Part shown: positions 20,267-22,459 of the stretch, piece after piece
How the letters are laid out: the number at the start of each line of letters is the position of its first letter
Numbering within the stretch: the stretch's first letter is position 1
Assembly: GCF_009650765.1 (NCBI RefSeq)
Contig: NZ_CP045740.1
Coordinates: 6,486,001 to 6,550,000 of the forward strand
Length of the DNA stretch: 64,000 nt
Direction: 5' to 3'
DNA from: Streptomyces sp. SUK 48
Lineage (GTDB): Bacteria; Actinomycetota; Actinomycetes; Streptomycetales; Streptomycetaceae
Notes under the pieces: model-generated
The model's input: only the letters and a program-made list of their open reading frames with translations
What the model was told of the DNA's origin: nothing
The model's database searches: none
Program-made: the position numbers and the translations under genes

Positions 20267-20623
20267 TCAGGCGTAGAGGGGGCCGGTGTACTTCTCGCCC
20301 GGTCCCTGGCCCGGCTCGTCCGGGACGATCGACGCCTCGCGGAAGGCCAGCTGGAGCGACTTCAGACCGTCGCGCAGCGGGGCCGCGTGGAAGGAGCTGA
20401 TCTCGGTCGCGCCGCCGTCCAGCAGCCCGGCGAGGGCGGTGATCAGCTTGCGGGCCTCGTCCAGGTCCTTGAACGTGTCGCCCTCCTCGCTGAGCCCGAG
20501 CTTCACGGCGGCGGCGCTCATCAGGTTGACGGCGACCGTCACGATCACCTCGACGGCGGGGACCTCGGCGATATCGCGGGTCATCGCGTCGAAGTCGGGG
20601 TTCTCGGCAGGGGTCTCACTCAT
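20267..20623 (-). CDS. DUF1844 family protein
   Basis: 118 residues with the DUF1844 pattern: PAVEVIVTVAVNLMSAAAVK, LDEARKLITALAGLL, and a short helical tail. Function unknown, though the family is commonly found just upstream of infC in actinobacteria, as here, on the opposite strand. ATG 20621-20623 follows a GGGGGG ribosome site. Confidence 0.85.
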   Translation of the reverse strand: MSETPAENPDFDAMTRDIAEVPAVEVIVTVAVNLMSAAAVKLGLSEEGDTFKDLDEARKLITALAGLLDGGATEISSFHAAPLRDGLKSLQLAFREASIVPDEPGQGPGEKYTGPLYA

Positions 20624-20671
20624 GCCCCCCACCCTAAGCGGCCGGTCGCCCTGCCCGTGACGCCCGCCCGA

Positions 20672-20701
20672 TTAGCCCTTGACTTCGCATCCTGCTAATC
20701 T
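20672..20701 (+). promoter_or_regulatory. Candidate infC operon promoter
   Basis: TTAGCC-N18-TAATCT. A better-looking TTGACT at 20679-20684 is only 11 nt from the same -10 and was not used. Transcription would start near 20708, giving a leader of about 300 nt. Confidence 0.35.
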
Positions 20702-21005
20702 GGTGGGCGACCGGCCGGACGTGGGCGCATGCCCATCGCTCGGCCCACAAGTGGAGGCTCCGATCTCCCACCCGCACCGTCCCCCGGGACGGCGGGTCTC
20801 CGGTCAGGCGGCCGCCATCGTTCCGTACGGACGATGGAGTCGCCCGATTCGCGCCCCGCGTTCATCGCGGCGGTGTTCCGGTAGTCAGGAGCCCCGCCTG
20901 TGATCGTCCGGGGCATTTTTTCTGCCTCGGCGCGGTTGGTCTGACGAACACAGACGTTACGCGGCAGTCCGCCAGGCCGTCGCGTGGTGCTATCGAGGAG
21001 GATCC
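20702..21005 (+). ncRNA. Structured 5' leader of infC-rpmI-rplT
   Basis: About 300 non-coding nt with successive hairpins: CCGTCCC/GGGACGG (20777-20792) with flanking ACCCGC/GCGGGT pairing, CCATCGT/ACGATGG (20815-20837), then an intrinsic terminator at 20891-20921. Long structured leaders that let IF3 or L20 control this operon are known in other bacteria. The specific family here was not identified. Confidence 0.6.
20891..20921 (+). terminator. Attenuator hairpin in infC leader
   Basis: GCCCCG (20891-20896) pairs with CGGGGC (20909-20914), followed by A and six T residues: a textbook intrinsic terminator, unusual in Streptomyces where U tracts are rare. It lies 85 nt before infC, so it must be read through or antiterminated. 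Confidence 0.75.
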
Positions 21006-21668
21006 ATCAGCGCCGAGCCCCGCATCAACGACCGGATTCGCGTTCCCGAGGTGCGACTTGTCGGTCCCAGTGGCGAGCAGGTCGGCATCGTGCCGCTCGC
21101 GAAGGCACTGGAGCTTGCGCAGGAGTACGACCTGGACCTGGTCGAGGTGGCTGCGACCGCCCGTCCGCCCGTGTGCAAGCTCATGGACTACGGGAAGTTC
21201 AAGTACGAGTCGGCCATGAAGGCCCGTGAGGCGCGCAAGAACCAGGCGCACACGGTCATCAAGGAGATGAAGCTCCGGCCGAAGATCGACCCGCACGACT
21301 ATGACACCAAGAAGGGTCACGTCGTCCGGTTCCTCAAGCAGGGCGACAAGGTCAAGATCACGATCATGTTCCGTGGTCGCGAGCAGTCCCGGCCCGAGCT
21401 GGGCTACCGACTGCTCCAGCGTCTCGCGGAGGACGTCCAGGACCTCGGGTTCGTCGAGTCGAACCCGAAGCAGGACGGCCGAAACATGATCATGGTTCTC
21501 GGTCCGCACAAGAAGAAGACCGAGGCGATGGCCGAGGCCCGTCAGGCGCAGGAGGCCCGCAAGGCCGAGGCCAAGGCGAACCCCGGCAAGTCGCAGAACC
21601 CGGCCGAGGCTTCGCCCGAGGTACCTGTCGAGGACGAGGCGTCGTCCGAGGAACCTGCCGAGGCGTGA
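21006..21668 (+). CDS. infC: Translation initiation factor IF-3, predicted AUC start
   Basis: Binds the 30S subunit and checks initiation codons. From ATC 21006 the protein (220 residues) begins [20 protein letters not shown], matching the conserved IF3 N-terminus; the C-domain has [29 protein letters not shown] and an Ala/Glu-rich tail. AGGAGG (20996-21001) ends 4 nt before ATC. No in-frame ATG, GTG or TTG occurs between the attenuator and this ATC. The first conventional start, GTG 21051, has no ribosome site and would delete the conserved first strand. A rare start codon on infC is the known autoregulation device in E. coli (AUU). Confidence 0.88.
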
Positions 21669-21782: not shown

Positions 21783-21977
21783 ATGCCGAAGAACAAGTCG
21801 CACAGCGGTGCCAGCAAGCGCTTCAAGGTCACCGGCTCCGGCAAGGTGCTCCGCGAGCGCGCCGGCAAGCGCCACCTGCTTGAGCACAAGTCGTCCCGCG
21901 TGACGCGTCGCCTCACCGGCAACGCCGAGATGGCCCCGGGCGACGCCGCGAAGATCAAGAAGCTTCTCGGCAAGTGA
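21783..21977 (+). CDS. rpmI: 50S ribosomal protein L35
   Basis: 64 residues, full length for L35: [20 protein letters not shown], then the [20 protein letters not shown] basic core and [11 protein letters not shown] end. The ATG at 21783, preceded by GAGGAGAG, is used; an upstream in-frame GTG (21726) would add a non-family extension through the hairpin. Middle gene of infC-rpmI-rplT. Confidence 0.96.
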
Positions 21978-22075: not shown

Positions 22076-22459
22076 GTGGCACGCGTCAAGCGGGCAGTCA
22101 ACGCCCACAAGAAGCGCCGGGCGATCCTGGAGCAGGCTTCCGGCTACCGTGGTCAGCGTTCGCGCCTGTACCGCAAGGCCAAGGAGCAGGTCACCCACTC
22201 GCTGGTCTACAACTACAACGACCGCAAGAAGCGCAAGGGCGACTTCCGTCAGCTGTGGATCCAGCGCATCAACGCCGCTGCCCGCGCCAACGGCATGACC
22301 TACAACCGCTTCATCCAGGGTCTGAAGGCCGCGAACGTCGAGGTCGACCGCAAGATCCTGGCCGAGCTGGCCGTCAACGACGTGAACGCGTTCGCCGCGC
22401 TCGTCGAGGTCGCGCAGAAGGCGCTGCCGTCGGACGTCAACGCGCCCAAGGCCGCGTGA
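22076..22459 (+). CDS. rplT: 50S ribosomal protein L20
   Basis: 127 residues, family length. [20 protein letters not shown], the basic [20 protein letters not shown] extension and [20 protein letters not shown] are all diagnostic. Assembles early on 23S rRNA and often represses its own operon. GTG start with AAGGAG 7 nt upstream. Confidence 0.97.

Follow-up and report, generated by a model that had tools for sequence, protein, structure and literature searches.

Translation of infC, the gene encoding IF3, very probably begins at an AUC codon at position 21006 of the window (the whole 64,000-nucleotide stretch of Streptomyces DNA analysed), with IF3 lowering initiation on its own mRNA. Within this joint reading, the sequence and its relatives give strong support to the AUC start, and autoregulation of infC through AUC is plausible. 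That infC starts at ATC in Streptomyces is already known. Feeney et al. 2017 report it and state that the gene is misannotated in most species (PMC5472188); in the literature searched, the portions of sources available to us give ATC for Streptomyces infC in that paper only. The gene, genus and codon are the same and the expected autoregulation is stated there as well, so that nothing essential differs, and the AUC start proposed in an earlier note on this DNA is not a new observation. Unlike the present analysis, the accessible part of PMC5472188 presents no alignment of infC starts.

The infC start site and reading frame

The features of the infC region, all on the + strand, are as follows.

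20706–20921, +: Scr1601 leader RNA (RF02830), with a 3' U-run just upstream of infC; Rfam 153.3 bits against a gathering score of 100
20901–20903, +: TGA, in-frame stop and 5' boundary of the infC frame; from the sequence
20986–21014, +: possible hairpin GGTGCT ... AGCGCC around the ribosome site and ATC; conserved, without covariation support
20996–21001, +: infC Shine-Dalgarno (SD) sequence AGGAGG; read directly
21002–21005, +: infC spacer ATCC, 4 nt, between AGGAGG and ATC; read directly
21006–21008, +: ATC, probable infC initiation codon; sequence, comparison and PMC5472188
21006–21668, +: infC coding sequence as read from ATC, 220 aa plus stop; translation, Pfam IF3_N and IF3_C
21024–21233, +: IF3_N (PF05198), residues 6–75 counted from 21009; 108.6 bits against a cut-off of 26.9
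21051–21053, +: GTG, first canonical in-frame start of infC, rejected as main start; codon list and IF3_N match
21255–21506, +: IF3_C (PF00707), residues 83–166 counted from 21009; 118.6 bits against a cut-off of 34.8
21783–21977, +: rpmI (L35), ATG start, downstream of infC; ORF list
22076–22459, +: rplT (L20), GTG start, downstream of infC; ORF list

The last two frames were named by sequence and we take them to be rpmI and rplT, presumably in the order that follows infC in E. coli.

Every sequence element named by the earlier note sits where that note had placed it, including the AGGAGG that ends 4 nt before ATC 21006. The frame entered at ATC closes at TGA 21666–21668. Upstream it is bounded by TGA 20901–20903, and a listing of the 34 in-frame codons from 20904 to 21005 contains no ATG, GTG or TTG, as the note had also claimed. 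The chance of meeting no NTG across 34 codons is about 0.42 at the trinucleotide frequency of the window, which is ordinary by itself; the weight of the ATC start therefore lies in the ribosome site, in conservation and in the in-frame stops of relatives. Pairs of AGGAGG and NTG with an open frame of at least 100 codons number only 7 in the window, from 6 sites, too few for the 4-nt spacing to be called unusually short or otherwise. Taken together, infC of the window belongs with the IF3 genes that have a non-NUG start: it encodes IF3, its non-NTG start is placed by an SD sequence, no canonical start lies upstream and the arrangement is conserved in relatives.

Conservation of the start and competing start sites

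Of 101 same-genus genomes searched, 99 gave an infC match, the two unmatched ones being 82% and 78% complete. AGGAGG, 4 nt and ATC follow one another in 99/99 of these loci, which is the conservation across Streptomyces that the earlier note had proposed as a check of its claim. NTG at the codon itself in related genomes, which would have spoken against the claim, occurs in 0/99; an upstream GTG is found in 31/99 and is not conserved. ATC also stands at the infC start in 80/80 named actinomycete loci (the best 80 of 587). Comparison of relatives and PMC5472188 thus agree with the earlier note on an AUC start. One same-genus locus (L093) carries a 12-nt duplication within the first infC codons (EPRIAEPRIND) and still has AGGAGG-4-ATC; it is not part of the alignment used for the upstream region of relatives.

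Two other starts have to be weighed against ATC. It is extremely improbable that IF3 starts at GTG 21051, without its first N-terminal strand. This GTG is the first canonical codon in frame, an NTG-only ORF list accordingly opens infC there to yield a 205-aa product (MRLVGPSG), and one database protein (P0093, one of 120 listed) begins exactly at it. No purine-rich ribosome site is seen in the sequence ahead of the GTG, however, and a start there would cost residues 1–14 after ATC and with them positions 1–9 of the IF3_N profile, in line with what the earlier note had said of this codon. Moreover, the peptide encoded between ATC and GTG 21051 recurs with little variation in the genus and in loci beyond it, a constraint not called for in an untranslated leader. 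A canonical start further upstream, read through the SD sequence into infC to give the longer protein seen in many databases, is very unlikely. An N-terminal extension is present in 101/120 listed homologues and the GTG found in 31/99 same-genus loci lies in frame, 8 codons upstream of ATC, but its position is GCG in the window, which has no NTG at all back to TGA 20901. Under a strict test, 22/99 same-genus and 22/80 named loci contain no in-frame NTG from the upstream stop as far as ATC, and 79/146 loci sampled across the phylum contain none as far as the RIN motif; the remaining same-genus loci have some NTG in the open frame, or an upstream stop beyond the stretch analysed. Where candidates exist, the nearest sits at many differing distances from ATC, its place is not conserved, and insertions of 1 nt put the upstream region into a different frame from one species to another. 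In L053, L280, L288 and L329 an in-frame TGA overlaps the SD sequence four codons ahead of ATC, hence nothing upstream can be the infC start in these loci. An AUC start at 21006 accordingly remains the strongly supported reading of the sequence.

Among the 120 database homologues listed, of 7998 scored, 17 begin MS[A/T/V]E, consistent with an ATC start, and two, one of them P0093, are missing the RINDRI motif. Extension is therefore the commoner infC start error among these 120, with 101 proteins extended and two truncated. The earlier note had expected gene callers to truncate IF3, which holds for the window's own genome (205 aa) and for two of the listed homologues. For E. coli, one study had infC (ATT) annotated with a shortened frame in over half of its strains (PMC3194237).

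Apparent infC start codons across the phylum

An even draw of 149 genomes from the phylum gave 146 with an infC match, and the start region of each was analysed. Starts were picked by a simple script using SD and spacing, which favoured NTG where one fitted, and 37/146 were set by eye. The picks comprise ATC 48, ATA 43, GTA 16, GTC 11, ATT 8, TTT 2 and TTC 1, so that apparent non-NTG starts, picked partly by eye, occur in 129/146 genomes. The others are 5 canonical starts, 9 longer N-termini with a likely NTG and 3 that are ambiguous between ATG and ATC. Grouped by family label, all picks are non-NTG in 38/48, and 28 families contain at least one locus that has no NTG. The codon list searched by the script was chosen beforehand, and TTT and TTC were put on it after those loci had been seen, hence the picks favour the N-U-H form to some degree by construction; the 79/146 loci without an NTG are independent of them.

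The same no-NTG test on rpmI and rplT covered the 109 loci for which flanks were available (80 named and the best-scoring 29/146 of the phylum sample), and gave 0 cases in 197 tests. These were 0/77 named and 0/26 phylum loci for rpmI (motif missing in 3 and 3) and 0/67 and 0/27 for rplT (motif missing in 13 and 2); in one phylum rplT the nearest NTG lies upstream, more than 3 codons from the motif. In these very loci, infC is without an NTG in 22/80 named and 16/29 phylum cases. We tentatively suggest, at somewhat less than an even chance, that the infC start of Actinomycetota is kept off NUG while the triplet varies as N-U-(A/C/U), the conserved property being a third-position mismatch with the initiator anticodon, and this mismatch being what IF3 reads. 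The variety of non-NUG infC triplets across the phylum may be new. In the literature searched, no paper lists actinobacterial infC starts at GTA, GTC or TTT; genes that prefer non-AUG starts are the subject of Gvozdjak and Samanta 2020 (arXiv), which may bear on this variety, and we make no claim to priority.

Several families are unusual. In f14 and f17 the infC start looks like GTC or GTA, and most f14 loci and two of f17 have an in-frame TGA within or adjoining the extended SD sequence. Across f14, f17 and f49, apparent GTC starts are found in L114-L116, L119-L122, L126 and L268, and apparent GTA starts in L118, L123, L157, L161, L167, L177, L196, L203, L213, L217, L218, L221, L222, L236 and L239. 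Family f11, in which 29/35 genomes matched with 30 infC places, consists of fragmented genomes (40 to 490 contigs). Here 5/30 places read TTT (L343, L347, L348, L351, L353) and 2/30 TTC (L344, L335) where ATT or ATA stands in sister genomes, each 6–7 bases after a strong SD sequence and with no canonical in-frame start between that sequence and the RIN motif. Putative UUU and UUC starts in f11 are only a lead. IF3 has an extended N-terminus, probably initiated at GTG or TTG 17–18 codons before RIN, in L171, L176, L191, L195 and L211 (f20), L183 and L216 (f41), L223 (f33) and L204 (f45), which seem not to follow the non-NUG rule. If the N-U-(A/C/U) reading is true, its extremes are the GUC and GUA families with TGA at the extended SD sequence, and UUU and UUC in f11.

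Proposed IF3 feedback and other possible layers of control

Initiation complexes with mismatched start codons are destabilized by IF3. In the proposed mechanism, the perfect AGGAGG would place the infC start at AUC 21006, which initiator tRNA carrying fMet would read, so that IF3 would begin Met-Ser-Ala-Glu, perhaps with loss of Met. The third base of AUC does not match the initiator anticodon, and IF3 would be expected to reject pairing of this kind. Plentiful IF3 would then reduce initiation on infC mRNA, and scarce IF3 would derepress it. In vitro, AUU decoded by the CAU anticodon is used less as IF3 rises, and so is AUC, there with two mispairing anticodons and not the natural CAU (PMC10158994).

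We infer the feedback on infC from E. coli infC (AUU) and from the repression by IF3 of the GTC start of Streptomyces sigR. E. coli infC is likewise an IF3 gene with a third-position mismatch at its start; it differs in that its codon is AUU and its autocontrol is experimentally supported (PMC5472188), whereas the codon of the window is AUC and autocontrol is argued by analogy. Feeney et al. give ATT for E. coli infC and ATC for its Streptomyces counterpart, and state that the gene autoregulates for this reason; their tests of IF3 repression, as reported in the accessible part of the paper, were on the GTC of sigR and not on infC, which is why we call autoregulation of infC plausible (PMC5472188). 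In those experiments a second copy of infC lowered the SigR made from GTC, and infC fidelity mutants raised it (PMC5472188). Streptomyces sigR resembles infC in joining a strong SD sequence of the AGGAGG type to a non-NTG start repressed by IF3 (PMC5472188), and differs in being another gene, with GTC, so that IF3 controls a gene other than its own. The genome of the window also has a sigR-like gene with this GTC arrangement, AGGAGGTGGGTCCGGTC, whose frame, beginning (M)GPVTGTDAGT, is overlapped by a downstream frame; it was named solely by N-terminus and layout.

L330 from about 1517, −: sigR-like gene, AGGAGGTG...GTC arrangement as in PMC5472188; N-terminus and layout

Beyond Actinomycetota, Myxococcus infC uses AUC. 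S. aureus infC has a third-position mismatch start with an extended SD sequence (PMC13009471). Its codon is AUA, it belongs to another phylum and initiating-ribosome density is found at the AUA; autoregulation there is called likely by the authors (PMC13009471).

In the window, AUC could be used only as a low-efficiency start, without IF3 feedback, leaving control to the Scr1601 leader and promoters. Scr1601 does lie directly upstream and ends in a U-run, and several infC promoters are mentioned by Feeney et al. (PMC5472188), but the start is non-NTG in most of the phylum sample while the triplet varies, a pattern better explained by selection on IF3 discrimination than by weakness as such, for which UUG or GUG could also serve. 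We regard this alternative as unlikely, and consider it less likely still that a hairpin hiding the SD sequence and AUC is the main translational switch. A GGUGCU-AGCGCC helix around the SD sequence folds in the window and in relatives, with 96.9% of cells pairing among 72 distinct sequences. Against it, no pair changes on both sides among these 72 sequences, the measures are no better than those of shuffles, and folding z-scores of the window are weak (−0.02 to 1.43). Within the genus and its near kin the hairpin is conserved, but its arm is poorly kept in the 33 loci that belong neither to the genus nor to L001-L055. The hairpin was consequently dropped as an established element and is listed above as a possibility. 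Feedback by IF3 through AUC is, of these readings, the plausible one.

Transcriptional control may be layered on top of IF3 feedback. Scr1601 is possibly a transcription attenuator of infC-rpmI-rplT, perhaps forming a second, transcriptional layer. A simple terminator scan of 20500–21200 returned 0 terminator-like sites, so that such a role would follow from its position and 3' U-run. In S. ambofaciens the Scr1601 homologue was found in UTRs and is not among the predicted sRNAs in the accessible part of that report (PMC8388888). One infC promoter is a SigR target in Streptomyces according to Feeney et al. (PMC5472188). In the window, a strict SigR pattern (GGAAT-N17-20-GTT) has two matches, 0.86 being expected by chance, neither upstream of infC, and a sigma-70 promoter scan of 20500–21200 gave no match.

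Many IF3 database entries carry doubtful N-termini, and infC is a clean example of a start missed by standard ORF calling; the gene is essential, and its product itself monitors start codons. The non-NUG variety at infC across the phylum would let the sequence rule of IF3 be tested on natural variation.
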